From the NCBI RefSeq assembly GCF_001424425.1, contig NZ_LMPT01000022.1, forward strand, positions 62,001 to 126,000: a stretch of DNA of 64,000 nucleotides, in the 5' to 3' direction. The stretch comes from Acidovorax sp. Leaf191 (GTDB lineage Bacteria; Pseudomonadota; Gammaproteobacteria; Burkholderiales; Burkholderiaceae_C). Position numbers and translations under genes: made by a program. The notes below the pieces were generated by a model. The model saw only the letters and a list, made by a program, of their open reading frames with translations, had not been told where the DNA came from and did no database searches. Shown here piece by piece: positions 45,523-60,871 of the stretch. The number at the start of each line of letters is the position of its first letter. Position 1 is the stretch's first letter.

Positions 45523-45538
45523 AAAGTTGTGCCATAAT
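45509..45538 (+). promoter_or_regulatory. Sigma-70 type promoter of the tRNA-Val genes
   Basis: TTGAAA (45509-45514) and CATAAT (45533-45538) are separated by 18 bases. The -35 box lies inside the end of dnaQ. Transcription would start about 17 bases before the first tRNA. Confidence 0.65.
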
Positions 45539-45561
45539 CGAAGGCTTGTCGGAGCGACGAC

Positions 45562-45636
45562 GGGAGATTAGCTCAGGGGTAGAGCACTGCATTCACACTG
45601 CAGGGGTCGCAAGTTCGAAACTTGCATCTCCCACCA
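45562..45636 (+). tRNA. tRNA-Val(CAC)
   Basis: 75 bases folding as a full cloverleaf. The acceptor stem GGGAGAT/ATCTCCC, the anticodon arm CTGCA-TTCACAC-TGCAG with anticodon CAC (Val, codon GUG) and the T arm CTTGC...GCAAG with the TTCGAAA loop are all present. The 3' CCA is encoded. A second identical copy follows after 54 bases. Confidence 0.95.
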
Positions 45637-45690
45637 AGCACGCTCGCAGACAAGCCACGGCAAAGTCCCTTTTTCGAAGGACGGAGCTGC

Positions 45691-45765
45691 GGGAGATTAG
45701 CTCAGGGGTAGAGCACTGCATTCACACTGCAGGGGTCGCAAGTTCGAAACTTGCATCTCCCACCA
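45691..45765 (+). tRNA. tRNA-Val(CAC), second identical copy
   Basis: Identical over all 75 bases to the copy at 45562 and probably on the same transcript. The spacer holds GTCC...GGAC, a small hairpin that may aid processing. Confidence 0.95.
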
Positions 45766-45769
45766 ATTC

Positions 45770-45806
45770 AAAATCCTTGCAGGCTTAGGGCTTGCAAGGA
45801 TTTTTT
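45770..45806. terminator. Strong intrinsic terminator after the tRNA genes
   Basis: AAAATCCTTGCA (45770-45781) and TGCAAGGATTTT (45793-45804) make a perfect 12-bp stem with an 11-base loop. T follows on the plus strand and A precedes, so it can end transcripts from both the tRNA genes and the convergent metallo-hydrolase gene. Confidence 0.85.
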
Positions 45807-45829
45807 CGTTGCGGCGCGTACAAGCCCGC

Positions 45830-46801
45830 TCAGTTGCTGGCCTTGCCGCAGCCAGCGGCGCACAGGCCCGAGGCCGCGAACTCCATGGTCCGCCCCGACA
45901 GAGGCACGATGACCGGAACGCGCGATGCCTTGATGAAGGCTTCCGTCTTGCTGCCCGGGCGCACCACCCCGTCCACCGTGCCGACCTCGTTGACATGTGA
46001 GGCGATCACCGATGCCGGCTTGACCAGTTCGTTGATCACGAAGGCGGCTTCCGCAGGGCCGGTGCTGAAGCCGTCGCCGATGTTCATCACCGCGAGCTTG
46101 GCCTTGTAGTAGTCACGCACCACGCGTTCCTGGTCGGCGGTGATGCCCGTATCGCCCGACAGGTAGGCTACCAGCCCGTTGCTGAAAGTCAGCACGTATC
46201 CGGTTGCCAGGCCAACGTCACCGGCTATGCCGGCCGCCTTCATTGCATCGCCCAGCTGGCCTCCGATGTAGTCCGGGTCGACGCCGTTGCTGTGCATGGC
46301 GGTCACCGTGGCGATGCGCACGCCGGCGACCGTGACGCTGCCGCCGAAGCGCGCCAGCATCGAGTTGGCCGGGTCGCCGCCGTTGGCCTTGAGCTTGGCC
46401 GCGAAGAAGGGCGGCATCTCGCTGCCGGTCACGATCTTGGACTTTTTGGCCAGCGCGATGTTCACCGCGTTGGAGTTGGGCAGGGCCGAGACCGACATGT
46501 CGGGGCTGGCACAGGTCCCCGAATTGGGCGCCGCGTTGTGCGCGTTGCCCACATGGTCACCATGCATGTGGCTCACGAGGATGATGTCGATCTTGCCCAG
46601 GCGCGGGTCACTGGCGCCGGCCACCGTGCGGCCCGGGTCGTACAGCACGCGCGTGCCGTTGGGGTCCTCGAAGACCAGGGCCCGGTCCTGCGGGCACAGC
46701 TCACCCTCGATGCCGCCCAACGGCGTCACCTTCACGTTCTGGGCCTGGGCCGACAAAGCGGCGACCAGGAAGAGGGCCGCGGCAGAGCACTTCAAGCGCA
46801 T
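45830..46801 (-). CDS. Secreted MBL-fold metallo-hydrolase
   Basis: A 323-residue metallo-beta-lactamase-fold hydrolase with a signal peptide (1-20, ALSAQAQ). Metal ligands are in SHMHGDHVG (His78, His80, Asp82, His83), and further ones are likely in TAMHSNG, SGDTG and ASHVNE. It looks like the UlaG/ribonuclease-Z-like periplasmic group with no known substrate. It is the last gene of the minus-strand cluster, 72 bases after the GntR gene, and may or may not belong to it in function. Confidence 0.82.
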   Translation of the reverse strand: MRLKCSAAALFLVAALSAQAQNVKVTPLGGIEGELCPQDRALVFEDPNGTRVLYDPGRTVAGASDPRLGKIDIILVSHMHGDHVGNAHNAAPNSGTCASPDMSVSALPNSNAVNIALAKKSKIVTGSEMPPFFAAKLKANGGDPANSMLARFGGSVTVAGVRIATVTAMHSNGVDPDYIGGQLGDAMKAAGIAGDVGLATGYVLTFSNGLVAYLSGDTGITADQERVVRDYYKAKLAVMNIGDGFSTGPAEAAFVINELVKPASVIASHVNEVGTVDGVVRPGSKTEAFIKASRVPVIVPLSGRTMEFAASGLCAAGCGKASN

Positions 46802-46873
46802 GGCATCTCCTCATTCGGTGGGTGGGCGGGGCTGCGACTGCTGCCCTAGCCCGCAACCCGCAGATTGTGTCAT

Positions 46874-47617
46874 TTAACCGGCACTGGACCCCAGACGCGC
46901 CATGTGCACCTGGTGCAGGGTGATCTTGCGCACTTCGGCCTGGCTGGTCTGGATGTGGGCGCGCAGCAGCATGGCGGCCTGGTCGCCGCGGTGCGCGCGG
47001 ATGGCCTTGAGGATGGTGGCGTGCTCATCGTACGTGGCATCGATGCGCGCCTGCTGCGTGAAGTCGAGCCGGCGGATGATGCGGATGCGCTCGGTCACGT
47101 CGCGGTGCACGCGCGTCATCTCGGCATTGCCGGCGGCGCGCACCAGCGCGCAGTGGAATGCCTCGTCCCAGGCTGCCACCTGCAGGGTGTCGGTGCTGCG
47201 CTGGTCCGGCGGCACGAGCCAGATGTTGTTGAGTTCGTCGAGCAACCGGTGGTCGACCTGGATGGACTTGAGAGCACCCGTGCCTTCGTCGCACAGGCGG
47301 TGCACGGCCGTGGTCTCCAGCACCATGCGCAGGTCGTAGAGCTGCTCGAACTGGTCGAAGTCGAAAGGCAGCACGCGCCAGCCGCTGCGAAACAGCACCT
47401 CCACGTAGCCCTCCTGCTGCAGGCGCACCAGGGCCTGGCGCACGGGCGTGCGCGAGACGCCCAGCCGTTCGCAGATCTCGTTCTCGGTGAAGCGGTCGCC
47501 CGGCACCAGCTTGAACTCACCCACGTCGCGCTTGAGCTGGGCGTACACATCGTCGGCGCGCGAGTTGCGCACCGGTTTCGTCTTGGAAGGAGGGGAGGCG
47601 GGGCGGGGGGGCTGCAC
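46874..47617 (-). CDS. GntR-family regulator with FCD domain
   Basis: A 247-residue regulator: winged helix (about 20-90, RFTENEICERLGVSRTPVRQALVRLQQEGYVEVLFRSGWRV) and an FCD effector domain (YDLRMVLETTAVHRLC, WDEAFHCALVRAAGNAEMTRVH, DEHATILKAIRAHRGDQAAMLLRAHI) with metal-binding Asp/His residues. It ends the biuret-type operon, 16 bases after the hydrolase gene, so it is the natural candidate for its local control. A matching palindrome stands before atzF, 13 kb away at the head of the cluster. Confidence 0.88.
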   Translation of the reverse strand: MQPPRPASPPSKTKPVRNSRADDVYAQLKRDVGEFKLVPGDRFTENEICERLGVSRTPVRQALVRLQQEGYVEVLFRSGWRVLPFDFDQFEQLYDLRMVLETTAVHRLCDEGTGALKSIQVDHRLLDELNNIWLVPPDQRSTDTLQVAAWDEAFHCALVRAAGNAEMTRVHRDVTERIRIIRRLDFTQQARIDATYDEHATILKAIRAHRGDQAAMLLRAHIQTSQAEVRKITLHQVHMARLGSSAG

Positions 47618-47633
47618 AGGGCGACTTTAGCAA

Positions 47634-48320
47634 CTACGGGGCCAGCAACGCGTCGGCCAATCGCGGCAGCAACGCGGCCGACGGAGCGGTCCAGCCGACG
47701 ATGGCGCCCTGGGCGCGCAGCATCTCGATGGCGGCTGCCTTGAAATGGGGGAAGTAGCTCTCGGTGCAGTCTTCGAGCAGCAGGCCATCATACCCGCGGT
47801 CATTGGCCTCGCGCATGCTGGTCTGCACGCAGACCTCGGTGGTCACGCCCATGAAGACGAGGTGGGTGATGCCGCGCGCTTGCAGCGTTTCGTGCAGGCC
47901 CGTGGCGTAGAACATGCCCTTGCCGGGCTTGTCGACGACGATCTCGCCCACCACCGGCGCCAGCGCGGGGATGATCTGGTTGCCCGGCTCTCCCGCCACC
48001 AGGATGCGGCCCATGGGCCCCGCGTCGCCGATGCGCAATTGCGGGTTGCCGCGCAGGCGCTTGGCGGGCGGGCAGTCGGACAGGTCGGGCCGGTGCGATT
48101 CGCGCGTGTGCACGACCAGGCCGCCCGCGGCGCGCCAGGCCAGCAGCACGGCCTGGCAGGCCGGCACGATGGCTTCGAGCAAAGACACGTCGTTGCCCAG
48201 CGTCTCGCCAAAGCCGCCGGGCTCGATGAAGTCGCGCTGCATGTCGATGATCACCAGCGCGGTGTGCGGCAGCGAGAAGCGGTAGTCGAAAGGGTGGGCG
48301 TGGATGGTCGTCAGGCTCAT
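47634..48320 (-). CDS. Isochorismatase-family cysteine hydrolase, candidate second ureide amidohydrolase
   Basis: A 228-residue cysteine hydrolase. The catalytic triad is Asp26 (IIDMQRDF), Lys131 ([12 protein letters not shown]) and Cys164 ([26 protein letters not shown]). It shares with the BiuH gene at 49926 the blocks [31 protein letters not shown] and the Cys region, so both belong to the biuret/triuret-type branch. Known triuret hydrolase TrtA and BiuH are paralogs of this kind, so a triuret or other substituted-ureide substrate is an attractive inference, not shown. Its ATG overlaps the ATPase gene's stop (ATGA). Confidence 0.82.
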
Positions 48321-49909
48321 GCCGCTTCCTGGTGGGGTGTGTGATCGTGTCCGCCGCCCATGTAGGCGCCCAGCACATGGCGCTCGGCGATGGCGGAGGG
48401 GGTTTCGTGCACGATGCGGCCTTCGCTCATGACCACGATGCGGTCGGCCAGCTCCAGCAGCTCGTCCAGGTCTTCGCTGATGAGCAGCACGGCGCCACCG
48501 CGCTCGCGCACGCCCAGGATGCGAGCATGGATCTCTGCCACGGCCGCAAAGTCCAGCCCGAACACCGGGTTGGCGGCGATCAGCACATTGATCTCGCCCG
48601 CCAGCTCGCGTGCCAGCACCGCGCGCTGCACGTTGCCGCCCGACAGGCTGCGGATGGGGGCGCCTTCTCCCTGGGTCTTGACGCCGTAGCCAGCGATCCA
48701 CTCGCGTGCCCGGCTGCGCCAGGTGGCAAAACGCAGCACGCCGCCCGTTGACAACGGCGGTTGGTCGAAGTCGCGCAGGGCCATGTTCTCGGCCACCGAC
48801 AGGTCGCCCACGCAGGCATTGCGCAGCGGCTCCTCGGGCAGGCTGCGTACCCTGAGTTCACGGTTCTGCGCGCGCGTGGCCGTGTAGTCCCGGCCCAGCA
48901 CCTGCACTTTGCCGGCCAGGCGCGGGCGCTGGCCCACCAGCGCCTCGACCAGCTCGCGTTGGCCGTTGCCCGATACGCCGGCCACGCCCAGCACCTCGCC
49001 CCTGCGCACCGACAGATCGAGGCCATGCAGGGCGAGGGTGCCACGGTCGCCGAGGGCTTGAAGGCCTTCCACCTGCAGCGCGACCTCGCCCGGCGGGTTG
49101 TCCGTATCTGCAGTCGCTGCCGCGCTGGCTGCGGGTGGCGAGGCGTTGGCGGCATCGCCCATCATGGCCTGGGCCAGCGCCTGAGGGCCGGTGTCGGCCA
49201 CCCGGCCGTGGTGCACAGCCTGGCCGCGGCGCAGCACGGTCACCGCATCGGCATAGGCCATCACTTCACGGAACTTGTGCGTGATGATGATGACGCTGCA
49301 CTGGCCGGTGCGTGCAAAGGTGCGCACATGGCCCAGCACCTCGTCGGCCTCCTGCGGGGTCAGCACCGAGGTGGGTTCGTCCAGGATCAACAGGCGCGGG
49401 CGCAGGTACAGCTGCTTGAGCAGTTCGAGCTTCTGCTTTTCGCCGGCTGCCAGTTCCGACGGGCGGGCATCCAGGTCCAGCCGGAAGGGCGTGGTGGCCA
49501 GAAAGGCCTGCAGCTCGGCCCGCTGGGCGCACCAGTCGATCACCGCCGGCGTCTGGCCACCGGCCAGCAGCAGGTTCTCGGCTACCGTCATCCCCGGCGC
49601 CAGTGTGAAGTGCTGGTAGACCATGCCGATGCCCAGGCTGCGCGCGACAATGGGGTTTGCGATGGCCTGCTCGCGCCCGTCCAGCAGAATGGCGCCTTCC
49701 TCGGCCCTCTGGAAGCCCGCCACGCACTTGACCAGCGTGCTCTTGCCCGCGCCGTTCTCGCCCAGCAGGGCGTGCACGCTGCCGGGCTCCACGCGCATGT
49801 TCACGCGGTCCATGGCGGTGAAGCTGCCAAAGCGCTTGGTCAGGTTCCAGGTCTCCAGCGCCAATGCACCGGTGCCTGTGGGCAGCGCGCCTATGGGTTG
49901 GTCGGGCAT
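48317..49909 (-). CDS. ABC importer ATP-binding protein, nucleoside/BMP type (two NBDs)
   Basis: A 530-residue protein with two tandem nucleotide-binding domains. The first (about 15-255) has Walker [25 protein letters not shown] as its signature and LLILDEPTS. The second (from about 290) has a degenerate Walker A (GVSGNGQRE) and signature LSGGNVQRA, the normal state in this sugar/nucleoside importer class. A 25-residue Ala/Pro-rich linker joins them. The ATG has AAGGAAG. It works with the permeases at 50640 and 51563 and the receptor at 52677, although biuH separates it from them. Confidence 0.9.
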
Positions 49910-49925
49910 GGGACTTCCTTTTCCT

Positions 49926-50627
49926 TCAAGCCAATGCGGCCAGTAGTGCGCCAGACGTGGCATGCGCACCGAACACGCCGCCCTGCATGGTCACCATGTT
50001 CAACGCAGCCTGGTGGTTGGCGGGGTCGGTGGCCGCCGTGCAGTCGGACAGCAGCAGGCATTCATAGCCCCGGTCATTGGCCTCGCGCATGGTGGTGTGC
50101 ACGCAGACATCGGTGGTGATGCCCGCGAGGATCAGGTTCTGCACGCCCGCAAGCTGCAGCACCATGTCCAGGTCGGTGGCGTAGAACGAGCCCTTGCCCG
50201 GCTTGTCGATCACCACCTCGCCGGGCAGCGGCGCGAGTTCGGGGATCAGCTCCCAACCCGGCTCGCCGCGCACCAGGATGCGCCCGCAGGGCCCGGCATC
50301 GCCGATGCCCAGGCCCTCCTTGCCGATCTGGCGTGAGCGCCAGCGCTTGTTGGCCGGCAGGTCGGCCAGGTCTGGGCGGTGCCCCTCGCGGGTGTGGATG
50401 ACGCGAAAGCCCTGTGCACGCATCCCCGGCAGCAGGCGCTGCAGCGGCGCGATGGGCGCGCGCGTGAGGGCGATGTCGTAGCCCATCACGTCCACATAGC
50501 CGCCGATGCCGCAGAAGTCGGTCTGCATATCGATCACGAGCAGCGCTGTGTTGTCCGGGCGCAGGTCGCCGTTGTAGGGCCAGGCGTAGGGATTGGCCTG
50601 GACGTGCCGGGTGGTCGCTGTGGTCAC
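49926..50627 (-). CDS. biuH: Biuret amidohydrolase (BiuH), GTG start
   Basis: A 233-residue cysteine hydrolase that would cut biuret to allophanate and ammonia. Asp33 ([10 protein letters not shown]), Lys142 ([12 protein letters not shown]) and Cys175 ([10 protein letters not shown]) form the triad. Long stretches such as [49 protein letters not shown] and [13 protein letters not shown] agree with my memory of the characterised Rhizobium BiuH, so this call is firm. The start codon is GTG with AAGGACCTCC upstream. It lies between the permease and ATPase genes of an ABC importer and upstream of a paralogous hydrolase. Confidence 0.9.
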
Positions 50628-50639
50628 GTGGGAGGTCCT

Positions 50640-51566
50640 TCAAGACTGTTTGGTGGAAGAGAGTTCACCGGGGCTGCCGGTGGCGACACTGCCGGGCTTG
50701 CAGGTCACGACCAGGATCAGCAGGGTCAGCACATAGGGCACGGTGTTGAACAGGTGGTAGCCCCAGCCCACACCCACCGACTGCAGCGCCGGGCCGATGG
50801 CGCCGGCACCGCCGAAAAGCATGGCGGCAACCAGGCAGCGCAGCGGGTTCCAGCGCGCGAAGATCACCAGTGCGACGGCGATCAGGCCCTGGCCGCTGGA
50901 GATGCCCTCGTTCCAGCTGCCGGGGTAGAACAGGGTGAGCGAGGCCCCGCCCAGCCCGGCGATGAAGCCGCCGGCCGCCGTGGCCGCGATGCGGATGCCC
51001 GGCACCGAATAGCCCAACGCCCGCGTGGCGTTGGCCGAGTCGCCTGCCACCCGCACCAGCAGGCCCCAGCGCGTGCGCGCAAAGGCCCACCACAGGAACA
51101 CAGCCAGCACGATGCCCAGTGGCAGCAGGGCATTGACCTGCAGGGCCGACTGCACCACGGGCGAATCGCTCCAGCCGCCCAGGGGCAGGGCGGGGATCTG
51201 CGGGGCCTGCGGCTGGATCAGCGGCTTGCCCAGGTAGAAGGCGAGGCCCGTGCCCAGCAGCATCAGCGCGATGCCGGTGGCCACATCGTTCACGCGCGGA
51301 AGCGAACACAGCACGCCGTGCAGCGTGGCCAGCACGGCGCCAGCGGTGGCACCGGCCAGCACCCCGAGCCAGGGCGATCCGGTGAGGTAGGCGCCGCCGA
51401 AGGCGGTCATGGCCGAGAGCACCAGCACACCCTCCAGACCGAGATTGATGCGGCCCGACTTCTCGGTGAGGCACTCGCCCAGGCTCACGAAGAGGAAGGG
51501 TACGCCCACGCGCAGGGCCCCGCCCACGATGCCCGCAATCAGTGCAATCCATTGGTCTGCGGTCAT
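50640..51566 (-). CDS. ABC importer permease, nucleoside/BMP type (second)
   Basis: A 308-residue membrane protein with eight to ten hydrophobic segments and the family phrases GECLTEKSGRINLGLEGVLVLSAM, NDVATGIALMLLGTGLAFYLG, GYSVPGIRIAATAAGGFIAGLGGA and SSGQGLIAVALVIFARWNP. It pairs with the permease before it: its ATG overlaps that gene's TGA (51563-51566). The stop is 12 bases before the biuH GTG. Confidence 0.9.
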   Translation of the reverse strand: MTADQWIALIAGIVGGALRVGVPFLFVSLGECLTEKSGRINLGLEGVLVLSAMTAFGGAYLTGSPWLGVLAGATAGAVLATLHGVLCSLPRVNDVATGIALMLLGTGLAFYLGKPLIQPQAPQIPALPLGGWSDSPVVQSALQVNALLPLGIVLAVFLWWAFARTRWGLLVRVAGDSANATRALGYSVPGIRIAATAAGGFIAGLGGASLTLFYPGSWNEGISSGQGLIAVALVIFARWNPLRCLVAAMLFGGAGAIGPALQSVGVGWGYHLFNTVPYVLTLLILVVTCKPGSVATGSPGELSSTKQS

Positions 51567-52663
51567 ATCGCCTCCACATTCCCGGTGGGCGGGGCGCTTG
51601 GCGTCGTTGCCTCGGCGGGCCGGCTGCGCCGCTGGGCCCACAGGGCCCGCCAGTCCACGTCGCGCAGCGCCTCGCTGGCCAGGATCAGCACGAAGGCAAT
51701 GCCCTGGAGCACCATCACCGAGGCGTCGGGCAGGCCCAGGCGGCGCTGCAGCAGGCTGCCGGCCGCGCCGAAGCCGCCGAACACGATGGCCACGGGGATG
51801 ATCGCGATGGGGTGGTGCCGCGCAATGAAGGCCACGAGGATGCCGGCATAGCCGTAGCCCGCGATCAGCGCGCCATTGGCATTGGTGTGAACCGCCGCCA
51901 CCTCCACGGCACCGGCCAGGCCTGCCGCCGCGCCGCCCAGGGCACAGGCCACCAGGATCAGGCGGGTGGCCGGCAGGCCCACCAATTGCGCGGCACGCGG
52001 GTTCCCGCCCACCACGCGGATCGAGAAGCCCGAGGCGGTGAAATGCAGCCACAGGCCCAGCGCCACGCAGGCCAGCACGCCCAGCACCAGGCCCCAGTGC
52101 ACGTCCGAGCCGGCGATGCCGCCGATCAGCAGGTCTGGGGCGAGGCTGGGTGTGGCCGGCTTGTTCAGGCTGGCCGGGTCGCGCAGGGGGCCCTCCACGA
52201 AGTGCTTGAACAGGCCGATCGCCACGTACGACAGCAGCAAACTGCTGATGGTCTCGTTGATGCCGCGGTACTGGCGCAGCCAGCCCGCCAGCATGATCCA
52301 CAGCGCGCCGGCCACGGCGCCAGCGGCGCAGGCCAGCGCCGTGCCCGCCACATGGCCGGGCAAGGCCACGGCCATGGGCAGCGCCGCGGCGGCCAGGCCG
52401 CCGAGCACCAGCGCGCCCTCGCCGCCGATGATGGTCAGCCCCGCCCGCGCAGGCAATGCCACGCACAGGGCCGTGAGCATCAATGGCGCAGAACGCTGCA
52501 GAGTGTTCTGCCACGAGAACCAGTCGCCGAACGCGCCCTTGAACAGCGTGAGCCACATGTCCACTGGGTTTACGCCCGCCAAGCCGACGAAGCCGCCGAA
52601 CAGCAGCAGCGCCAGCCCGATGGCGGCGATGGGCAAGAGGACGTCCTTGGCGGCCGAGTGCAT
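51563..52663 (-). CDS. ABC importer permease, nucleoside/BMP type (first)
   Basis: A 366-residue membrane protein with about ten hydrophobic segments; INETISSLLLSYVAIGLFKHFVEGPLRDP and GYGYAGILVAFIARHHPIAIIPVAIVFGGF are typical of the YufP/BmpC group. It forms the transmembrane channel together with the coupled second permease. It begins 13 bases after the receptor gene. Confidence 0.9.
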   Translation of the reverse strand: MHSAAKDVLLPIAAIGLALLLFGGFVGLAGVNPVDMWLTLFKGAFGDWFSWQNTLQRSAPLMLTALCVALPARAGLTIIGGEGALVLGGLAAAALPMAVALPGHVAGTALACAAGAVAGALWIMLAGWLRQYRGINETISSLLLSYVAIGLFKHFVEGPLRDPASLNKPATPSLAPDLLIGGIAGSDVHWGLVLGVLACVALGLWLHFTASGFSIRVVGGNPRAAQLVGLPATRLILVACALGGAAAGLAGAVEVAAVHTNANGALIAGYGYAGILVAFIARHHPIAIIPVAIVFGGFGAAGSLLQRRLGLPDASVMVLQGIAFVLILASEALRDVDWRALWAQRRSRPAEATTPSAPPTGNVEAI

Positions 52664-52676
52664 GGCAGTCCCTTGC

Positions 52677-53816
52677 TTAGAACGAACCCAGGACGCCTTC
52701 GACCAGGTAGTCCATCTTTTCCAGCTCCAGGTCGGTCTGCTTGAACGACTTGCCGCTGGCGATGACCTCCTTGCCCTTGTTGTTCTTGAGCGGGCCCTTG
52801 AAGATGTCGAAGCTGCCCGCGATCATTTTCGCCTTGGTGTCGTCGGCCTGTTTCTTGGCCGCGTCGCTCACGGCAGGGCCGTAGGCAGACATCTTCACGA
52901 AGCCTTCCTTCAAGCCCCCGCGCAGGAAGTTGGGGTGCGGCTTGCCGGTGCGGGCCGCCTCGATGATGGTGGTGTAGGCCGTGAGCCAGTTCCATTCGGC
53001 GCCCGTCAGGTAGGCCTGGGGCGCCAGCTTGGCCTGGCTGGCGTGGTAGCCGCAGACCATCTTGCCGCGCTTGGCCGCGGTTTCGACAATGACCTTGGGC
53101 CCATCCACGTGCATGGTGAACACGTCGCAGCCCTGGTCGGCCAGGCTGTTGGTGGCCTCGGCCTCCTTGACGGCCATGGACCAGTCGCCCGTGAAGATCA
53201 CGCTGCAGGTGATGCCCGGCTTGACCGAGCGCGCGCCCAGCGTGAAGGCGTTGATGTTGCGCAGCACCTGCGGGATGGGCTTGGCCGCGATGAAGGCGAT
53301 CTTGCCGCTCTTGCTCATGTGGCCGGCCACCACGCCGTTGAGGTACTGGCACTCGTCGATGTAGCCGAAGAAGCTGCCCGCGTTCTTGGGGTGCTTGCCC
53401 TCGGTCCACATGCCGCCGCAGTGCGAAAAGCGCACGTCCGGGTACTTGGCGGCCAGGGCCAGCAGGTGCGGATCGAAGTAGCCGAACGATGTGGGGAACA
53501 ACAGCTTGGCGCCGTCCTGCGCGATCATGCCGGTCATGGTCTTTTGCACGGCGGCGGTCTCGGGCACGTTCTCCTCTTCCACCACCTTGATGCCGGGCAT
53601 CTTCTTGAGCTCGGCCGCAGCCTGGGCATGGGCCTGGTTGTAGCCGTAGTCGTCGCGCGGGCCCACATAGATCACGCCCACGGTGAGCGGGGCCTGTGCG
53701 TTGGCCTGCATTGCCCAGCCGCCCAGGGTGCTTGCAGCGCCCAGCGCCGCAAGGGCTTGGAGGGATTCGCGGCGGTTCGGGTGGGCAAGGCGGGACATGG
53801 GTTTCTCGGGTTTCAT
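52677..53816 (-). CDS. BMP-family ABC transporter substrate-binding protein
   Basis: A 379-residue periplasmic receptor of the BmpA/PnrA family. The N-terminus PNRRESLQALAALGAASTLGGWAMQANAQA has a twin-arginine pair and a cleavage site at about residue 44, so Tat export is likely. Mature features: VGVIYVGPRDDYGYNQAHAQ, FPTSFGYFDPHLLALAAKYPDVRFSHCGG, GYIDECQYLNGVVAGHMSKSGKIAFI and GCDVFTMHVDGP. Characterised relatives bind nucleosides and purines, so an amide-rich N-heterocycle or ureide ligand is plausible. The start has AAAGGA. Confidence 0.9.
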   Translation of the reverse strand: MKPEKPMSRLAHPNRRESLQALAALGAASTLGGWAMQANAQAPLTVGVIYVGPRDDYGYNQAHAQAAAELKKMPGIKVVEEENVPETAAVQKTMTGMIAQDGAKLLFPTSFGYFDPHLLALAAKYPDVRFSHCGGMWTEGKHPKNAGSFFGYIDECQYLNGVVAGHMSKSGKIAFIAAKPIPQVLRNINAFTLGARSVKPGITCSVIFTGDWSMAVKEAEATNSLADQGCDVFTMHVDGPKVIVETAAKRGKMVCGYHASQAKLAPQAYLTGAEWNWLTAYTTIIEAARTGKPHPNFLRGGLKEGFVKMSAYGPAVSDAAKKQADDTKAKMIAGSFDIFKGPLKNNKGKEVIASGKSFKQTDLELEKMDYLVEGVLGSF

Positions 53817-54039
53817 GGCGGTCCTTTCGGCAGGGGTTGGATAAAGGGGAACAGAAAGAAATCGAGAGAGGTGCATTACTCTGGCCTCTGGCCGCGCTAT
53901 GCCTGAAGCCGGTGCCACTGGCGCGGCCAAGGCCAGTGCCCGCGCGCAAGGGCCGCCCCGCCGCGCTGGGGGCGTCCCCCTCCCGACTCGCGCAGCGAGA
54001 CGAGAGAGGGGGAAGGCGCGTAGCGACTCAGGGGGTGCT
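53817..54039. other. GC-rich gap with long hairpin between the two halves of the ureide cluster
   Basis: The only large gap inside the cluster (223 bases). A long hairpin at 53976-54012 has arms CCCCCTC/GAGGGGG with an inner CTCG/CGAG. The rest is a G/C-rich stretch of a kind I recall as a recurring intergenic element in Comamonadaceae. It may separate two transcripts, with a new promoter close to the BMP receptor gene. Confidence 0.5.
53976..54012. repeat. Long inverted repeat in the cluster gap
   Basis: Outer arms CCCCCTC (53976-53982) and GAGGGGG (54006-54012), inner arms CTCG (53987-53990) and CGAG (53996-53999). It starts 28 bases after the atzH stop, on the atzH side of the gap. Confidence 0.55.
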
Positions 54040-54417
54040 TCATAGAAGACTCACGTGGGCGGCCACCACGCGCCAGCCGGCTGGCGTGCGCAGCCAGGTC
54101 TGGCTTTGGCGGCCGGTGCGGGCGCTGCCCTCGCGCTGGAATTCGACATTGGCGGTGGCGAAGTCGCGGCCGTAGGTGGTGATCACGGTCTTGAGCAGGC
54201 GCCGCTGCGGCCCCTGGGCCGGGCGCGCGGCGCGAAAGGCCTGTATCTGCGCGTAGCCGTACAGGTTCTCGGTGGCGCCGTAGCGCAGGGTGTGGGGGCT
54301 GTCCCAGAAGAGCTCGTCGAGCACCTCCACCTTGTTGTGCACCAGGGCATCTTCGTAGCGGGCGAACACGTCCTCGACCTCGGCGAGCACCTCGGGCTGG
54401 TTGATGGTGTAGGGCAT
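54040..54417 (-). CDS. atzH: AtzH/HpxZ-like protein (DUF3225)
   Basis: A 125-residue cystatin/NTF2-like protein of the DUF3225 family: [60 protein letters not shown], ending [19 protein letters not shown]. In cyanuric acid degraders such as Pseudomonas ADP, AtzH goes with AtzE and AtzG; in enterobacteria HpxZ goes with oxalurate genes. It is thought to help or proofread carboxybiuret handling. It begins 14 bases after atzE ends. Confidence 0.88.
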
Positions 54418-54431
54418 GAAGAAGATGGCTT

Positions 54432-55850
54432 TCACAAAATGGCGATGGGCGCGCGGCAGATGCCCGCAGCCTCCAGCACGGTGGCGGCACGCAGCGCCAG
54501 GTCTTCGCGCCAGGGCGCCGCGATGATCTGCACGCCGATGGGAAGGCTTGCGTGCGCGCCCCACACCGGCACGGCGCACACCGGCAGGCCGATGCATGAG
54601 AGGGGCTGGGTCAGCAGGCCCATGTTGGGGCGCAGCGGCAGGTCGCGACCGTTCAGGTTGAAACGCTCGGTGCCGATGGGCGTGGCCGCGCAGGGCGTGG
54701 CAGGGGCCAGCAGCAGGTCGTAGCGCGAGAGCACCCGTGCGGCTTCGTGGGCATAGCGGCTGCGCACGCGCTGGGCGCGTGCCACCCAAGCGGCAGGGAT
54801 CAGCGCGCCTGCCAGGAAGCGATCGCGTGACAGCGGCTCGAAGTCGGCCGCGCGCGTGCGCAGGTTGTCGAGGTGCAGGGCACCCGCCTCCGCATTGGTG
54901 ATGAGGAAGGCCGCCGCGCGGCCGGCCTCCACCAGTGGCAGCTCCACCGGCTCGGCCTCTGCGCCCAGCGCCTGTGCCACCCGGGCCACGGCGGCGCGTG
55001 CCTCGGGCAGGGCGTTGTCGGCAAAGTAGCCGCCCAGTACGCCGATGCGCAGACCGGTGATTCCCGTCTCCAGGTCGTGGGCCACCGGTTCTGCGGGCCG
55101 CTGTGCGCAGCCTGCATCGGTGTGCGCAGCCGCAGCCTCCGGGCCCTGCATGGCGTCGTAGGCCAGCGCCAGGTCGCGCACGCTGCGCGCCATGGGGCCC
55201 AGGTGGTCCAGGCTGGAGATGAAGGGAAAGCTGCCCGTGCGCGGCAGCCGCCCGAAGGTGGGTTTGAGTCCGAACACGCCGCACAGCGAAGACGGCACAC
55301 GGATCGAACCATTGGTGTCCGACCCGAGCGTGATGGGCACCTGGCCCGCAGCCACGGCCGCGCCGGAGCCGCCCGACGAACCACCGGCGATGCGCGCCAG
55401 GTCGTGCGGGTTGTGGCAGGCGCCCTCGTGGCTGTTCTCGGTGGTGAAGCCGTAGGCGTACTCGTCCATGTTGAGCGCCCCCACCAGAATGGCGCCTGCG
55501 GCCTCCAGGCGCTGCACCAGCAGACCGTCGGCCCGGGCGGGAGGGCGGTCGCGCTCGATCTTGGAGCCGGCCAGCGTGGTGAGGCCCGCCACGTCGAACA
55601 GGTTCTTCACGGCAAAGGGCACGCCCAGCAGGGGCAGGGCGGCCTGTGTCCCCGCAGCCAGGCCGGCATCGATGCGTGCAGCGCGCGCCAGGGCACGTGC
55701 CCGCAGCACGGCGGTGAAGGCGTTGACGCGGGCGTCGGTCTGCTCGATGCGGTCCAGGCAGGCCGTCACCAGCGCCGTGGCCGATACGTCGCGCGCCGCC
55801 ACGGCCTGTGCCATGCCGGCGGCGTCCTGTTGCCACCAGGGCGCGGTCAT
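54432..55850 (-). CDS. atzE: AtzE-family amidohydrolase (1-carboxybiuret hydrolase large subunit)
   Basis: A 472-residue amidase-signature enzyme with Lys82 ([11 protein letters not shown]), the Gly-Ser loop [13 protein letters not shown] (155-167) and nucleophile Ser182 ([12 protein letters not shown]). [26 protein letters not shown] and [16 protein letters not shown] are hallmarks of the AtzE/HpxY branch. With AtzG it deaminates 1-carboxybiuret. The coupled small-subunit gene (ATGA overlap) and atzH on its other side make the assignment strong. The oxalurate (HpxY) role is the alternative, but no hpxW or other oxalurate gene is seen here. Confidence 0.9.
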
Positions 55851-56056
55851 GCGCGGCCTCCCTCAGGCGGCACCACCGGGACGAAGGCCATGGCGGGCTC
55901 GTCCGTCGTGGCCAGCGGCACGGCGTTGACGGTGTCGGCAAAATCGCTGGCCAGCGCCAGGTAGCCGAGCACGGCCGCGCGGTGTTCGGGCGCGATGGGC
56001 AGGCCGATGGCGGCCGAGGCCGCGTCGAGGTAGCGTTCCAGCTCGGTGGCGTTCAT
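55847..56056 (-). CDS. atzG: AtzG-like small subunit (DUF4089)
   Basis: A 69-residue protein, [43 protein letters not shown], of the DUF4089 family. AtzG is the small partner that stabilises AtzE, as the GatC subunit does for GatA. It overlaps atzE (ATGA at 55847-55850) and the ATPase gene upstream (56053-56056), so all three are coupled. Confidence 0.88.
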
Positions 56057-56874
56057 CGGCGCACCTCGCGCTGGAAGATCTCCAGGCTGAGCTTTTTCAT
56101 CGCCACGAAGCTCGGTTCGCTCAGCGTGGCCAGGGTGCGCGGGCGCGCGTCCTCGTAGCGCAGGATCTCGGCCACCTTGGTCGGGCGCTTGGTCAGCAGC
56201 AGCACCTCGTCGGCCAGGTAGACGGCTTCTTCCAGGTCGTGCGACACCAGCAGCATGGTCGTGCCGGTCTGCATGAACACCTCCTGCAGCTTCTCGCGGA
56301 TGAACAGCGTCATCTCGAAGTCGAGTGCCGAGAAGGGCTCGTCGAGGAACAGCACCTCGGGGTTGGGCGCCAGCGCGCGCATGATGGACGCCGTCTGCTG
56401 CTGCCCGCCCGAGAGTTCGTAGGGGTAGCGGTTGAGGTCGAACTTCACGTCGAACGAGGCCACCAGTTCGGCCATGCGGCGGTCCACCTCGGCCTTGCTC
56501 TTGCCTTCGAGCTTGAGCGGGTAGGCGATGTTGTCGATGGTGCGCATCCACGGAAACATCGCCTCGCGGTAGTTCTGGAAGACGTAGCCGATCTTCGTGT
56601 CCTTGAGGCTCTTGCCATCGAACAGGATCTCGCCGCTGTCGATGGGCACGAGGCCCGCGATCATGTTGATCAGCGTGCTCTTGCCGCAGCCATTGGGGCC
56701 GAAGACCGAGACGATCTTGTGCTTGGGGATGTCGAGGTCGAAGTCCTCGTACAGCGGCCAGCCCGCGAAGTACTTGGTCAGCCCACGGATGGTGATGTGG
56801 GTGCCGGCCGGGCCGGGCGTGAAGACACGCTGGGGCACATCGGCATACACGGCGCCATTGACGACGGTGTTCAT
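56053..56874 (-). CDS. ABC importer ATP-binding protein, nitrate/taurine (NitT/TauT) type
   Basis: A 273-residue single nucleotide-binding domain: Walker A GPNGCGKST, Q-loop VFQNYREAMFPW, signature LSGGQQQTASIMRAL, Walker B VLFLDEPFSALD and switch His in LVSHDLEEA. An N-terminal extension of about 25 residues precedes the domain. The signature lacks the usual Arg after QQQ but is otherwise intact. It couples with the permease before it and atzG after it by 4-base overlaps. Confidence 0.9.
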   Translation of the reverse strand: MNTVVNGAVYADVPQRVFTPGPAGTHITIRGLTKYFAGWPLYEDFDLDIPKHKIVSVFGPNGCGKSTLINMIAGLVPIDSGEILFDGKSLKDTKIGYVFQNYREAMFPWMRTIDNIAYPLKLEGKSKAEVDRRMAELVASFDVKFDLNRYPYELSGGQQQTASIMRALAPNPEVLFLDEPFSALDFEMTLFIREKLQEVFMQTGTTMLLVSHDLEEAVYLADEVLLLTKRPTKVAEILRYEDARPRTLATLSEPSFVAMKKLSLEIFQREVRR

Positions 56875-57701
56875 CGGCCGCTCCAGTGCACGATCCTGCG
56901 TTCGGCGATCAGAAAGAGAATGTTCAGGGCATAGCCCAGGGCGCCTGCTGCCAGGATGGCGGCGTACATGCTCTTGACGTTGAGCACCTGCTGCGCATCG
57001 ATGATGCGGTGGCCCAGGCCGTTGTCCGAGCCGATGAACATCTCGGCCACGATGACGATGACCAGCGCCATCGACACGGCCGAGCGCAGGCCGACGAAGG
57101 TGGGCTGCAGGCTTTCCCAGATCAGCACGTCCTTGAAGATCTGCCAGCGCGATGCGCCCATCACGCGCGCCGCCATGACGCGCTGCTTGCGGGCGTTGAT
57201 GACGCCATAGGCGCTGTTGAAGATCACGATCAGGAAGGCGCCGAACGCGGCGATGGCCACCTTGTTCACATCCGACACGCCGAAGATCAACAGGAACAGC
57301 GGGATCAGCGCCGACGAGGGGGTGGAGCGGAAGAAGTCGATCAGAAACTCCACGCTGCGGTACGCGCGCTCGTTGCTGCCCAGCAGCACGCCCAGGGGCA
57401 CGCCGACCACGGCCGCGATCAAAAAGGCCTGCACCGTGCGCCAGACGGTCACCGCGAAGTCGAGCAGCAGCGGCCCGCCGGCCAGGCCGGTGACCAGTGT
57501 GAGCACGGTGGCGCCGGGCGGGGGCAGCAGGATGGGCTTGATGAAGCCCAGGCGCACCACCAGGTCCCAAAGGACGAACAGGGCCAGGGGGCCGACGAAG
57601 GGAAGCAGCCTGTCCCAGGCGGGCGTCTTGGGCACAGCGGATGCCGCCGTGCTCGCGGGCGGCGACCAGGCGCCGGCAATGGTGGAGGTGGTTTCGGCCA
57701 T
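56871..57701 (-). CDS. ABC importer permease, NitT/TauT type
   Basis: A 276-residue permease with six membrane segments and the EAA-like loop AARVMGASRWQIFKDVLIWESLQPTFVGLRSAVSMALVIVIVAEMF. ATV-WRTVQAFLIAAVVGVPLGVLLG and FFRSTPSSALIPLFLLIFGV are typical of the SsuC/TauC group. The ATG has AGGGGCG a few bases upstream, and the gene begins 11 bases after the receptor gene. Confidence 0.9.
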   Translation of the reverse strand: MAETTSTIAGAWSPPASTAASAVPKTPAWDRLLPFVGPLALFVLWDLVVRLGFIKPILLPPPGATVLTLVTGLAGGPLLLDFAVTVWRTVQAFLIAAVVGVPLGVLLGSNERAYRSVEFLIDFFRSTPSSALIPLFLLIFGVSDVNKVAIAAFGAFLIVIFNSAYGVINARKQRVMAARVMGASRWQIFKDVLIWESLQPTFVGLRSAVSMALVIVIVAEMFIGSDNGLGHRIIDAQQVLNVKSMYAAILAAGALGYALNILFLIAERRIVHWSGR

Positions 57702-57712
57702 GGCGCGCCCCT

Positions 57713-58720
57713 TCAGGCCTTGTAGATCAGGCTGTCGACCACGACCTTCTTCTCGAAGATGCCCTTCTCGGTGAACAGGTCGTAGAACTTCTGGAAGTAC
57801 GCCAGGTCACTGGGCTTGAACTCGTTGTAGAGCATGTATGAGGCCAGCGGCACCTCGGCCGTGAGCGCGCCTTCGATGGCGGTGTAGCCCTTCATGAACT
57901 GCCGGGCCTCGTCGGGTTTGCTGCGCACCAGCTCGATACCGCGGGCGTAGGCGGCGATGAACTTTTTGGCCACCTCGGGGTTCTTCTTGATGAACTCGCT
58001 GGTCAGGCTGGCTGCGCCGCCGTGCCAGGGCGCCATCGCATCGCCCAGGATGTACCTGGCCACAACCCCGGACTCGATGATCCGCGTGGTGCCGTTCATG
58101 CGGCCGATGGTGCCCGTGGGCTCCAGCGTGTAGCAGGCATCCACCTGGCCGGCGACGATGGCGGCGATGTGCTGGCCGATGGGCAGCTCGGTCACCGTGA
58201 CGCCGCTGGCGCCGGCGCGCTCCAGCATGGTCTTGCACAGGGTCATGTTCTGGATGCCGGGGCCGGACGCGACCTTCTTGCCCTTGAGGTCGGCCATGGT
58301 CTTGATGGCGCTGTCCTTGCCGGTGATGAATTGGTCGAGCACGAATTTCGCGTTGCTCGGGTTGGTCGCGAAGATCTTGAACAGGCCGGGCTGGGCGATC
58401 TCGCCGATGGCCAGGTTGGCCGATCCCGTGCCGTTGGAGCTGCCGTCGGAGCGGCCCGAGAGCATGGCCTCCATCACCTGCTGGGCGCCCGCGAACTTGA
58501 GCGGCTCTACGTCCAGGCCTGCCTCCTTGAAATAGCCTTTCTCCACCGCAGCGAAGAAAGGCAGCCCGGCCGCCACGGGCCAGAAGCCGATGCGGATCTT
58601 GGGCGCCGCCTGGGCGCGCACCAGCGCGGGTGCTGCCAGCACACCCAGGGTTGCGGCCGAGGCCTGCAAGATGCGGCGGCGCGATGCGCCCGTGGACGTG
58701 ATGGAACTGTGGGATGTCAT
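57713..58720 (-). CDS. ABC transporter substrate-binding protein, NitT/TauT (NMT1-like) type
   Basis: A 335-residue periplasmic receptor with a Tat-like signal (SRRRILQASAATLGVLAAPALVRAQAA, cleavage near 38). Mature start IRIGFWPVAAGLPFFAAVEKGYFKEAGLDVEPLKFAGAQQVMEAMLSGRSDGSSNG is characteristic of the SsuA/NMT1 fold. Related receptors take up sulfonates, nitrate, pyrimidine precursors and cyanurate-like compounds. It is placed second in the cluster, 42 bases after atzF. Confidence 0.9.
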   Translation of the reverse strand: MTSHSSITSTGASRRRILQASAATLGVLAAPALVRAQAAPKIRIGFWPVAAGLPFFAAVEKGYFKEAGLDVEPLKFAGAQQVMEAMLSGRSDGSSNGTGSANLAIGEIAQPGLFKIFATNPSNAKFVLDQFITGKDSAIKTMADLKGKKVASGPGIQNMTLCKTMLERAGASGVTVTELPIGQHIAAIVAGQVDACYTLEPTGTIGRMNGTTRIIESGVVARYILGDAMAPWHGGAASLTSEFIKKNPEVAKKFIAAYARGIELVRSKPDEARQFMKGYTAIEGALTAEVPLASYMLYNEFKPSDLAYFQKFYDLFTEKGIFEKKVVVDSLIYKA

Positions 58721-58762
58721 GGAAGGCTCCTGCAGCAGGGTTGGAGGGGAACAAACAGGGAA

Positions 58763-60505
58763 TCAGGTGCCGGCCCTGCGCGACGCGATGTACGCCCGCC
58801 AGCCGCCAAAGTGGCTGATGTCGTGCGCACCGGCCAGCGCCAGCGGCTCGCAGATGAAGCCCTGCACGCTGCTGCCGTCGGCCAGGGTGAGCGTGCCTAT
58901 GCCCAGCGGCTGCGGGATCAACGCGACGAAGCTGCCGTAGTTCGCGGCGGGCATGCGCCACACCTCGATGGCGATCCGCGTGCCCTGGCCTGGCGCCACA
59001 CGCAGCAGGCCGGGCTTGGGCGGCACGGAGCCGGGCAGGGCGTATAGCTGGTAGTCGGCGGCTGTCTCGGTCACCAGCTCCAGCTTGGCGCCGCGGTCTG
59101 TGAGCTGGCCGTTCAGCGGCATGCCGCTCAGGTGGGCACCGACCACGGCGACCCGTACTGTGGCGGGCGCCTGCAGCCCGGCGATGGGCTGGGGCACGGG
59201 CAAGGGCGTGCTGCCGGCGGCCTGGGGCAGGCCGGTGGCGTGGTGGTAGCGCTGGCCCAGCTCCGCCAGCTGCCAGTCGCTGCCGCAGGGGCCGATGAGC
59301 GTGATGCCGAAGGGCAGACCGTCAGCGCGCAGGCTGCTGGGTACCGCAATGGCGGCGTAGTCCAGCAGGTTGACGAAGTTGGTGTAGGCGCCCAGGTTGC
59401 GGTTGAGCACCACCGGGTCGGCCTGTATGGCGGCGATCGTGTAGTGCGTGGGGGCCGTGGGCACCAGCAGCACGTCGATGGCCTCGGGGCCCTGCCACAT
59501 CGGTGCCACCTGCTGGCCCAGGGCGCGCAGCCGGGTCTGGGCGTCACACAGGTCGGCCGCGCTGTAGCTGCGCCCGCTGGCCAGGATGCTGCGCACCGGC
59601 TCCACCACCTGGTCCTCGTGTTGGTCGAAGAAGCTGCGTACGGCGGCATATCGCTCTGCCACCAGGGCGCTTTCGTAAAGCAGGGCCGCGGCCTGGGCCA
59701 GCGGCGCGTAGGGTATGGACACCGGCGTGCCGCCCAGCGCCTGAAGGCGGGCCACGGCCTCGGCGAATGCCGCCTCGGCCGCTGCATCGCCGAAGAACTC
59801 GAGCACATCGGGCACGCCGAAACGGAAGCTGGCGGGCAATGGCTTGGTGGCCAGGGTGAGCTGCCGCCCATAGGGGTCTTGCCCGTCATAGCCCTGTGCG
59901 ACCTGCAGCACGCAGGCCGCCACGTCCACCGTGCGCGCGAAGATCGAGACACAGTCGGCGCTCTGCGCGGCCGGCACCACGCCCCGTGCACTGACGAGAC
60001 CCTTGGTTGGCTTGATGCCCACGATGTTGTTCAGCCCTGCGGGCACGCGGCCCGAGCCGGCCGTGTCGGTCCCCAGCGCGAAGTCCACCTGGTCGGTAGC
60101 CACCACATAGGCAGAGCCTGAACTGGAGCCACCGGAGACGTAGGCGGGGTTGAGCGCGTTGGGGACCGCGCCATGCGGCGAGCGGGTGCCGTTGAGCCCG
60201 CAGGCGAACTGGTCCAGGTTGGTCTTGCCCACCAGCGTTGCCCCGGCGTCGAGCAGGCGCTGCACCACCGCTGCATGGGCCGTGGCCGTGTAGGCAAAGC
60301 CAGGGCAGGCGGCGGATGTGGGGTAGCCGGCCACGTCGATGTTGTCCTTGACCGCAAAGCGGAGGCCGCTGAGCGGGCCGCCAGGCCTGCCGGCGACCGC
60401 GGGCTCGCAGCGCACCAACCAGGCCTGCTGGGCCAATGGGAGGCGCGGTGAACCGTCAGGCACAGGAGGAAATTCGGCCACCAGGGAGTTTGTTGCTTGC
60501 ACCAT
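58763..60505 (-). CDS. atzF: Allophanate hydrolase AtzF
   Basis: A 580-residue enzyme that breaks allophanate (and 1,3-dicarboxyurea) to ammonia and CO2. The N-terminal amidase domain has Lys53 (FAVKDNIDVAG), SGGSSSGSAYVV (124-135) and Ser151 (GTDTAGSGRVPAG). The C-terminal domain (about 430-580, AVVGAHLSGMPLNGQLTDRGAKLE to FICEPLALAGAHDISHFGGWRAYI) is the allophanate-hydrolase-specific half, thought to hold the decarboxylation or second step. No biotin-dependent urea carboxylase gene is adjacent, so it is not the urea amidolyase type. The frame extends 450 codons upstream, but that part is the shadow of the divergent deacetylase gene. Confidence 0.93.
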   Translation of the reverse strand: MVQATNSLVAEFPPVPDGSPRLPLAQQAWLVRCEPAVAGRPGGPLSGLRFAVKDNIDVAGYPTSAACPGFAYTATAHAAVVQRLLDAGATLVGKTNLDQFACGLNGTRSPHGAVPNALNPAYVSGGSSSGSAYVVATDQVDFALGTDTAGSGRVPAGLNNIVGIKPTKGLVSARGVVPAAQSADCVSIFARTVDVAACVLQVAQGYDGQDPYGRQLTLATKPLPASFRFGVPDVLEFFGDAAAEAAFAEAVARLQALGGTPVSIPYAPLAQAAALLYESALVAERYAAVRSFFDQHEDQVVEPVRSILASGRSYSAADLCDAQTRLRALGQQVAPMWQGPEAIDVLLVPTAPTHYTIAAIQADPVVLNRNLGAYTNFVNLLDYAAIAVPSSLRADGLPFGITLIGPCGSDWQLAELGQRYHHATGLPQAAGSTPLPVPQPIAGLQAPATVRVAVVGAHLSGMPLNGQLTDRGAKLELVTETAADYQLYALPGSVPPKPGLLRVAPGQGTRIAIEVWRMPAANYGSFVALIPQPLGIGTLTLADGSSVQGFICEPLALAGAHDISHFGGWRAYIASRRAGT

Positions 60506-60871
60506 TTTGAAGAATTCAATCTTGGATACAAGAAGAGATGCAAGCGCTGTGCCAGGCCCGCTGAGTTCGCAGCGGATCGACAAGATCGATGTGCTCCAAG
60601 AGGCAGGAAGTCCCGCAAGAACTGCATTGCGCTTAGAGGGAAGCTCGTGGCTTTGGGGCCCGGACGATGTCTGGTACCGGCACATGAAGCGCGGCACGTG
60701 CGGCTGGGTGCCTGCCTGTGCTGCCAGCCCTGCCTGGTGCCAGTTTTCGCTGCGGTGTGGTGCATGGGCAGCGTTTCCAGCGGTGTGGGACGCGCTAAAG
60801 TGGTGAGCCCTGCCTGCCTCCGTGGGATGCATCGACGGACGCGGGCAAAACCATTTCCTTTCTGTATCCGC
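60506..60871. other. Divergent control region between atzF and the acetylpolyamine gene
   Basis: 366 bases without a supported gene. It must carry the promoters of both divergent units. The main recognisable element is a GntR-type palindrome at 60520-60533. Confidence 0.5.
60520..60533. promoter_or_regulatory. Candidate GntR(FCD) operator before atzF
   Basis: TCTTGGATACAAGA is a palindrome with 5-bp arms (TCTTG/CAAGA) and the core TTGGATACAA, very close to the TTGTATACAA consensus known for FCD-type GntR regulators. It ends 15 bases before the atzF ATG, where a bound repressor would block transcription of the cluster. Confidence 0.55.

Follow-up and report, generated by a model that had tools for sequence, protein, structure and literature searches.

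The window analysed here, a stretch of 64,000 nt from Acidovorax sp. Leaf191, contains at 45830..60505 a block of 15 minus-strand genes (Table 1). Fourteen of them form a coherent ureide cluster, spaced by 4-base overlaps or gaps of 11-42 bp with the exception of 223 bp between AtzH and the BMP receptor, and one, an MBL-fold gene, lies outside the conserved cluster. The parts named in a first-pass annotation of this DNA (AtzF, AtzE-AtzG-AtzH, BiuH, a GntR regulator and two ABC importers) are all in place, with family matches in agreement. The gene order of the cluster recurs in other genera, and this co-location is far beyond chance. We read the block as a nitrogen-scavenging locus for triuret and biuret that would import both and free all of their nitrogen as ammonia, at a probability of roughly 0.75.

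Table 1. Genes and elements of the block and its borders, in window positions.
Feature	Position	Strand	Evidence
AtzF, allophanate hydrolase (amidase + AH_C domains)	58763..60505	-	TIGR02713, 747 bits, above the equivalog cut-off of 511; PF21986 AH_C; best solved relative 4gyr, allophanate hydrolase
NMT1/SsuA-family substrate-binding protein, first importer	57713..58720	-	PF09084; TIGR01728 below cut-off; weak solved relatives only, best 3qsl
Permease, first importer	56871..57701	-	PF00528
ATPase (Ssu/Tau-type), first importer	56053..56874	-	PF00005; closest NCBIfam models of SaoA/taurine type, below cut-off
AtzG, small subunit of 1-carboxybiuret hydrolase	55847..56056	-	PF13318 AtzG-like, 47.4 bits vs cut-off 24; no NCBIfam model met
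AtzE, amidase subunit of 1-carboxybiuret hydrolase	54432..55850	-	TIGR02715 and NF006631 above cut-off; best solved relative 6c62, AtzE; amidase signature motifs kept
AtzH, predicted 1,3-dicarboxyurea decarboxylase	54040..54417	-	PF11533, 203 bits; best solved relative 6bjt, AtzH; Tyr22, Arg46, Arg66 (ADP numbering)
BMP/PnrA-type receptor, second importer, AtzT relative with altered pocket	52677..53816	-	PF02608; best solved relative 6pi5, AtzT; pocket comparison
Permease 1, second importer (BPD_transp_2)	51563..52663	-	PF02653
Permease 2, second importer (BPD_transp_2)	50640..51566	-	PF02653
BiuH, biuret hydrolase	49926..50627	-	NF050097, 412.5 bits vs cut-off 370; best solved relative 6azo, BiuH; signature Y,Y,D,T,V
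Double ATPase, second (BMP) importer	48317..49909	-	PF00005, two stretches
TrtA, predicted triuret hydrolase	47634..48320	-	Best solved relative 6xix, TrtA; signature F35,N41,E160,Y187,I205
GntR/FCD regulator, probable repressor of the block	46874..47617	-	PF00392 and PF07729; 3-prime end of cluster in many relatives
MBL-fold hydrolase, within the inserted block, outside the conserved cluster	45830..46801	-	PF12706
Sigma54-type -24/-12 element TGGCACAGCGCTTGCA, upstream of AtzF	60539..60554	-	Scan of window and of AtzF upstream regions
Palindrome CTTGTATCCAAG, just downstream of the promoter, likely GntR operator	60521..60532		Only CTTGN4CAAG in the window
Tandem tRNA-Val genes beside the insertion point	45562..45765	+	Empty site in congeners

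The second hydrolase of the BiuH branch, present but left unnamed in the first-pass annotation, is TrtA, a predicted triuret hydrolase, because of its best solved relative and of five residues that separate TrtA from BiuH. Among solved structures it scores 314.6 bits against 6xix, the Herbaspirillum enzyme, and 216.8 bits against the best BiuH, and it falls below the NCBIfam BiuH cut-off (252.5 vs 370 bits). At the discriminating positions given in a 2020 paper (PMC7948467), numbered by offset from a gapless alignment to 6xix, it has the TrtA letter at 5/5; the product of 49926-50627, which passes the equivalog model and carries the BiuH letter at 5/5, is BiuH. These signatures hold widely: F, N, E and Y are invariant in 96/96 TrtA rows (93 distinct sequences) and I205 occurs in 95/96, with one I-to-L, and 75/75 BiuH rows (75 distinct sequences) show Y,Y,D,T,V. 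A second, partly overlapping row set gave 58/59 and 37/37, respectively. The catalytic D24, K129 and C162, together with F29, K132 and Q202, are present in the window TrtA and in 96/96 TrtA rows, and position A134 is Met in the window, likewise in 24/96 rows. Searching the whole genome yielded two genes of BiuH/TrtA type, and the earlier suggestion that two hydrolases mean two entry substrates fits a TrtA for triuret and a BiuH for biuret.

The reactions of TrtA, BiuH, AtzEG, AtzH and AtzF are known from papers on other strains, and we infer that the window copies do the same. TrtA would convert triuret to carboxybiuret and ammonia, AtzEG would take off a second ammonia to give 1,3-dicarboxyurea, AtzH would turn this into allophanate by loss of one carboxyl, and AtzF would release the last two ammonias and CO2. 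Biuret, either taken up as such or arising from carboxybiuret by spontaneous decarboxylation, would become allophanate through BiuH and join at AtzF, with the two ABC importers feeding the pathway. AtzE keeps the amidase signature motifs and the gene for its AtzG subunit adjoins it; AtzEG would be a main outlet for the product of TrtA.

The evidence for this outlet lies in the company that AtzE keeps. TrtA was counted at >=58% identity to the query, with signature residues checked in fetched loci only, and AtzE, in the family count, by likeness to the AtzE of Pseudomonas sp. ADP (ADP below). Among 398 genomes of the window's family TrtA was found in 101 (104 were tallied, and G041, G068 and G397, with a best match at BiuH level, were dropped), AtzE in 89 and both in 74; the figures for 399 genomes of the order, a sample sharing some genomes with the first, are 49, 46 and 30. 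The odds ratios for co-occurrence, with relatedness ignored, are 51 (family, Fisher) and 33 (order). All 66 same-contig pairs of the family lie within 17 kb, 53 of them on one strand; a further 8 pairs have their genes on different contigs. In the order, 19/19 same-contig pairs lie within 14.7 kb and 11 pairs are on different contigs. TrtA stands directly 5-prime of AtzE in 11/19 order pairs, across an AtzG-sized gap of 218-309 bp. We argue for a working link between TrtA and AtzE because the same partners occur in different gene orders. The 27 family loci with TrtA only comprise 24 with BiuH, two on contigs only 3 and 6 kb long, and the chimera locus L277; a cut AtzE was seen in one of them, G039.

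Locus comparison adds to this picture. The first related-locus set holds 80 loci, of which 54 are usable after 26 were dropped for too little flank or no TrtA. There, TrtA is accompanied by BiuH, AtzE and AtzH in 24, BiuH and AtzH in 18, BiuH alone in 5, BiuH and a cupin in 3, BiuH and AtzE in 2, AtzE and AtzH in 2, and by neither BiuH nor AtzE in 0. A second set of 56 loci (47 usable, 9 dropped on the same grounds) was chosen for the absence of AtzE or BiuH, or because AtzE and TrtA are adjacent; since it is trait-selected and 11 of its 56 loci repeat the first set, its counts are no survey (BiuH and AtzH 22, AtzE and AtzH 13, all three 10, BiuH 1, the chimera locus 1). The chimera locus of G058 is the one exception to the rule that TrtA needs BiuH or AtzE. 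Its gene (L277, 8980 to about 9660) reads as BiuH in its first half (Y, Y) and as TrtA in its second (E, Y, I), and BiuH and the importer ATPase are missing beside it, as if both paralogues had recombined.

Some relatives do without BiuH altogether. L139 reads AtzF-NMT1-permease-ATPase-AtzE-AtzH-TrtA-GntR, with no BMP importer and no BiuH, and L138, which starts at a contig end, has the same order and the same two absences from NMT1 on. At E<=1e-20, BiuH was not found genome-wide in nine genomes having TrtA, AtzE and AtzH: G298, G358, G105, G002, G392, G335 and G398 of the family (nine handles, two of them repeats) and G603 and G747 of another family. In these searches TrtA itself comes out on top at 50-54%, followed by a match at 38-44% or by none; in a tenth genome, G749 (87% complete), BiuH was likewise not found. 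Because AtzE is tied to TrtA and no BiuH was found in nine relatives, triuret could be run through TrtA, AtzEG, AtzH and AtzF without biuret. Between the NMT1 importer and AtzE, five BiuH-less relatives (L133-L137) have an extra block. It includes amidase-like and isochorismatase-type genes that are divergent (37-43% to BiuH), together with a BMP importer of distant relationship (23-39%); a similar set lies on a Paraburkholderia plasmid.

The AtzH of the window keeps all pocket residues compared (Y22, R46, R63, R66, R73, F94, R96, Q106 and Q108). Arg66 was placed in the dicarboxyurea pocket by docking in a 2018 paper (PMC6219798). It is found in 57/57 loci with TrtA and AtzE (54/54 distinct sequences), in 18/18 loci with AtzE but no TrtA in the locus, and also in ADP and two HpxZ. 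Among TrtA loci without AtzE it occurs in 2/55 (2/46 distinct sequences), and in 0/42 (0/35) of those that are well covered, with sequence reaching 8 kb upstream of TrtA and 3 kb downstream. The two exceptions, L251 and L085, lie within the 55 and outside the 42, and L251 is a 3-kb piece of G114, a genome that does carry AtzE. Two Variovorax loci (L032, L036) have an AtzH 72% identical to that of the window and Leu at 66. On a TrtA and AtzH tree built without column 66, the presence of AtzE changes 8 times and Arg66 7 times, leaving 3 independent pairs on well-supported branches, too few for significance. We read this pattern as AtzH serving dicarboxyurea when AtzEG is present and carboxybiuret when it is absent. 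Speaking against it, neither R66A nor R66K, both made in the 2018 study, is named with its five impaired variants (PMC6219798). The TrtB of Herbaspirillum is reportedly a carboxybiuret decarboxylase and, judging from the neighbour gene of a 93% identical TrtA, would be an AtzH-family protein. In certain rhizobia (L020:15931-16284, L022:14886-15239) the gene after TrtA encodes a small cupin instead of the AtzH relative present in other loci, which may offer another way to decarboxylate carboxybiuret.

Two trees were built for AtzE. The first, drawn almost solely from TrtA-selected loci, is biased; the second was made by a quick method from rows picked by likeness to ADP AtzE. In the first, the window AtzE forms a clade with those of Variovorax, Xenophilus, Pseudorhodoferax and Piscinibacter. 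In the second, ADP AtzE is sister to the AtzE of G079, at 77% the closest to it found, inside a 31-row clade whose other 30 rows come from the window's family; the window AtzE stands outside this clade and groups with G091. HpxY of Klebsiella and Serratia branches apart, on a long branch, and linkage to TrtA changes at least 12 times on the second tree. Of the relatives found, the one nearest to the atrazine plasmid operon is also in G079 (L230, 8637 to about 12800): an atzD-atzG-atzE-atzH set that looks chromosomal and is accompanied by a divergent AtzR-like LysR gene (76%).

Our wider proposal, held at slightly below even odds, is that AtzG-AtzE-AtzH may be at home in triuret breakdown as the deaminating outlet for the carboxybiuret of TrtA, BiuH being dispensable. 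AtzH would then exist in two states told by residue 66, a dicarboxyurea decarboxylase with Arg66 alongside AtzEG and a carboxybiuret decarboxylase, i.e. TrtB, with another residue where AtzEG is lacking. The cyanuric acid operon of the atrazine plasmid would have taken its AtzE from a member of this beta-proteobacterial group, where AtzE mostly serves triuret.

The structure of the block itself opens a different possibility, as two modules make it up that are found separately in other genomes. In the window, a BMP importer-BiuH-TrtA module sits between AtzH and GntR of an AtzF-NMT1-AtzGEH module, and across loci the BMP importer goes with BiuH/TrtA and the NMT1-type importer with AtzF-AtzGEH, also in genomes without TrtA. 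Two pathways might merely share AtzF and the regulator, AtzF-NMT1-AtzGEH serving another N-carbamoyl compound and BMP-BiuH-TrtA serving biuret and triuret with spontaneous decarboxylation of carboxybiuret. Both halves do occur singly. In many other loci BMP importer-BiuH-TrtA is joined by AtzF and an AtzH relative while AtzE is absent. BiuH-TrtA with an AtzH relative and without AtzE makes up 18/54 of the first and 22/47 of the second set, the latter mostly fetched as AtzE-less, and in G114 the two modules lie side by side in opposite, convergent directions. AtzF-NMT1 importer-AtzG-AtzE-AtzH-GntR stands alone in six genomes (G169, G301, G022, where AtzG was not matched, G080, G260 and G099), and G145 is a seventh with the AtzF-NMT1-AtzGE-GntR half and no AtzH seen. 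In these stand-alone genomes neither TrtA nor BiuH was found (none at E<=1e-60, none in the 19-kb loci), nor was AtzD, and no further neighbour gene recurs in at least three of the eight loci compared. Because TrtA, BiuH and AtzD are lacking, AtzGEH must have another feed there; and because this half stands without TrtA, the role of AtzGEH in the window need not be the product of TrtA. We nevertheless consider two separate pathways unlikely, given the co-occurrence of AtzE with TrtA and their linkage under several gene orders, among them the direct adjacency described above, and given that TrtA lies inside an AtzGEH-GntR module without BiuH or a BMP importer in L138 and L139.

The stand-alone AtzGEH halves weigh against our main reading of the block, and so do several other observations. 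The AtzEG branch could be minor because BiuH is present too, and three of six further BiuH-free candidates (G532, G570, G421) have a BiuH elsewhere in the genome (67-77%). The sigma54-palindrome pair described below also occurs upstream of the BMP gene in 11/51 loci and is missing there in the window. Finally, the AtzE of the window shares 58% identity with ADP AtzE and 50-53% with HpxY, and lies in a clade apart from ADP AtzE in both trees, for which reasons sequence alone does not settle its substrate. The identity to HpxY could suit an oxalurate or allantoin (hpx-like) system with AtzG-AtzE-AtzH as HpxX-HpxY-HpxZ, and NCBIfam indeed names the window AtzH 'HpxZ'; one relative, G342, even has an HpxW-like gene in the AtzF position, with a short AtzF/amidase-related open reading frame beside it, a further point against our main reading. 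However, public annotation labels ADP's own AtzH 'HpxZ' too, and HpxY of Klebsiella and Serratia branches apart. AtzF, TrtA and BiuH are present in the cluster and no HpxW is among the 15 genes, to which the search for it was confined, so we judge the oxalurate route highly improbable.

A cyanuric acid pathway with its ring-opening enzyme elsewhere or lost would be a natural thought, since ADP uses AtzDGEHF and relatives of AtzD lie in or near such clusters: between AtzH and BMP in G039, after GntR in G020, about 9 kb after GntR in G215, and further on in L054 and L032. The first-pass annotation had noted no cyanuric acid hydrolase or barbiturase in the window, and the absence extends to the whole genome (5.87 Mb, 24 contigs, 100% complete by the tool's figure), in which the family PF09663 of AtzD, TrzD and barbiturase has no match at E<=1. 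Similarly, among 13 AtzE-bearing, TrtA-less relatives tested only G079 has AtzD, and G079, with atzD-G-E-H in a row, is also the one genome with AtzD among 21 tested. We reject the cyanuric acid route, the least probable of the readings considered. An AtzD together with an hpx set elsewhere in the genome had been named as a ground for refutation; besides the lack of an AtzD family match, the genome has one AtzE, the next best match being 39% identical, and no second AtzE/HpxY-like gene. Because of the missing AtzD/barbiturase and the single AtzE, the stand-alone triuret and biuret system without cyanuric acid ring opening that had been proposed is supported. The AtzD relatives of G039 (L276, 1513 on) and G020 (L274, 10435 on) are 61-62% identical to ADP AtzD; their position, within this cluster or immediately behind it, shows that a single locus can hold both sources of carboxybiuret.

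Control of the block would fit nitrogen scavenging. TGGCACAGCGCTTGCA, which we take to be a fit to the sigma54 consensus, is one of two sites scoring >=11 in the window with both strands scanned, and CTTGTATCCAAG, a putative GntR operator, starts 22 nt on from its start. Among 14 AtzF upstream regions, two of which (L027 and L139) are from one genome, a sigma54-like element is found in 13 and the palindrome in 11. The promoter ahead of AtzF may couple the block to nitrogen limitation, and the GntR protein, bound to the palindrome near the start region, would keep it off until a ureide appears.

The cargo of the importers can be approached through AtzT, a receptor of BMP fold whose guanine contacts are known (PMC6834077; PDB 6pi5). 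The window BMP receptor keeps Tyr45, Trp194, Ser97, Phe98 and Asn169, whereas the guanine-contacting Glu165, Asn218 and Asn220 are replaced by Gln, His and Asp; in 68 orthologues these letters are found in 63, 68 and 68, respectively. Such a pocket probably suits a flat ligand other than guanine. Often, a nitrilase-superfamily gene annotated as formamidase is part of the BMP-BiuH-TrtA module; it lies between permease 2 and BiuH in L019:12963-13970 and many relatives and is missing in the window.

Most parts, and the cluster type, are already partly described. The triuret pathway TrtA-TrtB-BiuH-AtzF was reported in 2020 for Herbaspirillum sp. BH-1, with TrtA, BiuH and AtzF in one operon as in the window (PMC7948467). 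G590, whose TrtA is 93% identical to that of BH-1, has NMT1 and BMP importers, an AtzH-family gene with Cys at 66 and GntR around TrtA and BiuH, and no AtzE at E<=1e-120; what the window adds to this type is AtzG-AtzE. The atzDGEHF operon of ADP (PMC6219798) has AtzG, AtzE, AtzH and AtzF in common with the window, including the AtzG-E-H order, and sigma54 control was reported for it (PMC6834077); the window differs by having no AtzD and TrtA and BiuH instead, GntR in place of the LysR-type AtzR, and an extra NMT1 importer. In 2018, AtzF-(ABC)-atzGEH-(ABC, amidases) clusters were described in Rhodoferax, Variovorax, Rhizobacter, Leptothrix and Methylibium, very probably the same arrangement as here; section 14 of that paper mentions neither a substrate nor TrtA or BiuH and calls the contexts little further evidence on AtzH (PMC6219798). 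Ammonia oxidisers have bmpA-nupABC/biuH/trtA/trtB/atzF contigs, which join a BMP importer to BiuH, TrtA and AtzF as in the window, with no AtzGEH route seen in the open account (PMC12625717). Within the open literature, supplements aside, the tie of AtzE to TrtA and a BiuH-free route were not found in print. Two open papers mention triuret together with AtzE, and no TrtA cluster with AtzEG was seen in either.

The joining of AtzEG to TrtA points to a second, biuret-free triuret route, and the cluster suggests an origin for part of the atrazine plasmid's pathway. Both compounds, triuret and biuret, are by-products in urea fertiliser and enter soils with it. If the proposal is true, carboxybiuret has two enzymatic fates in triuret degraders, distinguished by gene content, and a single residue of the 125-residue AtzH may mark which is used. 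The 2018 AtzH paper remarked that atzGEH may be older than the cyanuric acid operon (PMC6219798), and under this proposal the remark would become a specific, testable origin.

The block adjoins tandem tRNA-Val genes, and in 16/20 other genomes of the genus its flanks meet with 109-205 bp between them; three of the 20 are unjudgeable, and in G403 the block is present at 88-91% identity, spread over two contigs. TrtA was found in none of four other congeners within the 398-genome family sample. Site-specific integration was rejected, as there are no direct or inverted repeats of >=11 bases between 45501-46000 and 60301-61000 and no integrase among the 15 genes; for the same reasons, only insertion or repeated loss at the tRNA-Val site can be stated. 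The single-strand island of the first-pass annotation stands at 15 genes, but its MBL-fold member is not part of the conserved cluster: it is common to the window and G403, and at 35% identity it was found in 0/80 loci of the first related-locus set, some of them incomplete. Beyond the block, a long frame at 61090-63012 (+) has an FAD-dependent oxidoreductase domain in its second half.

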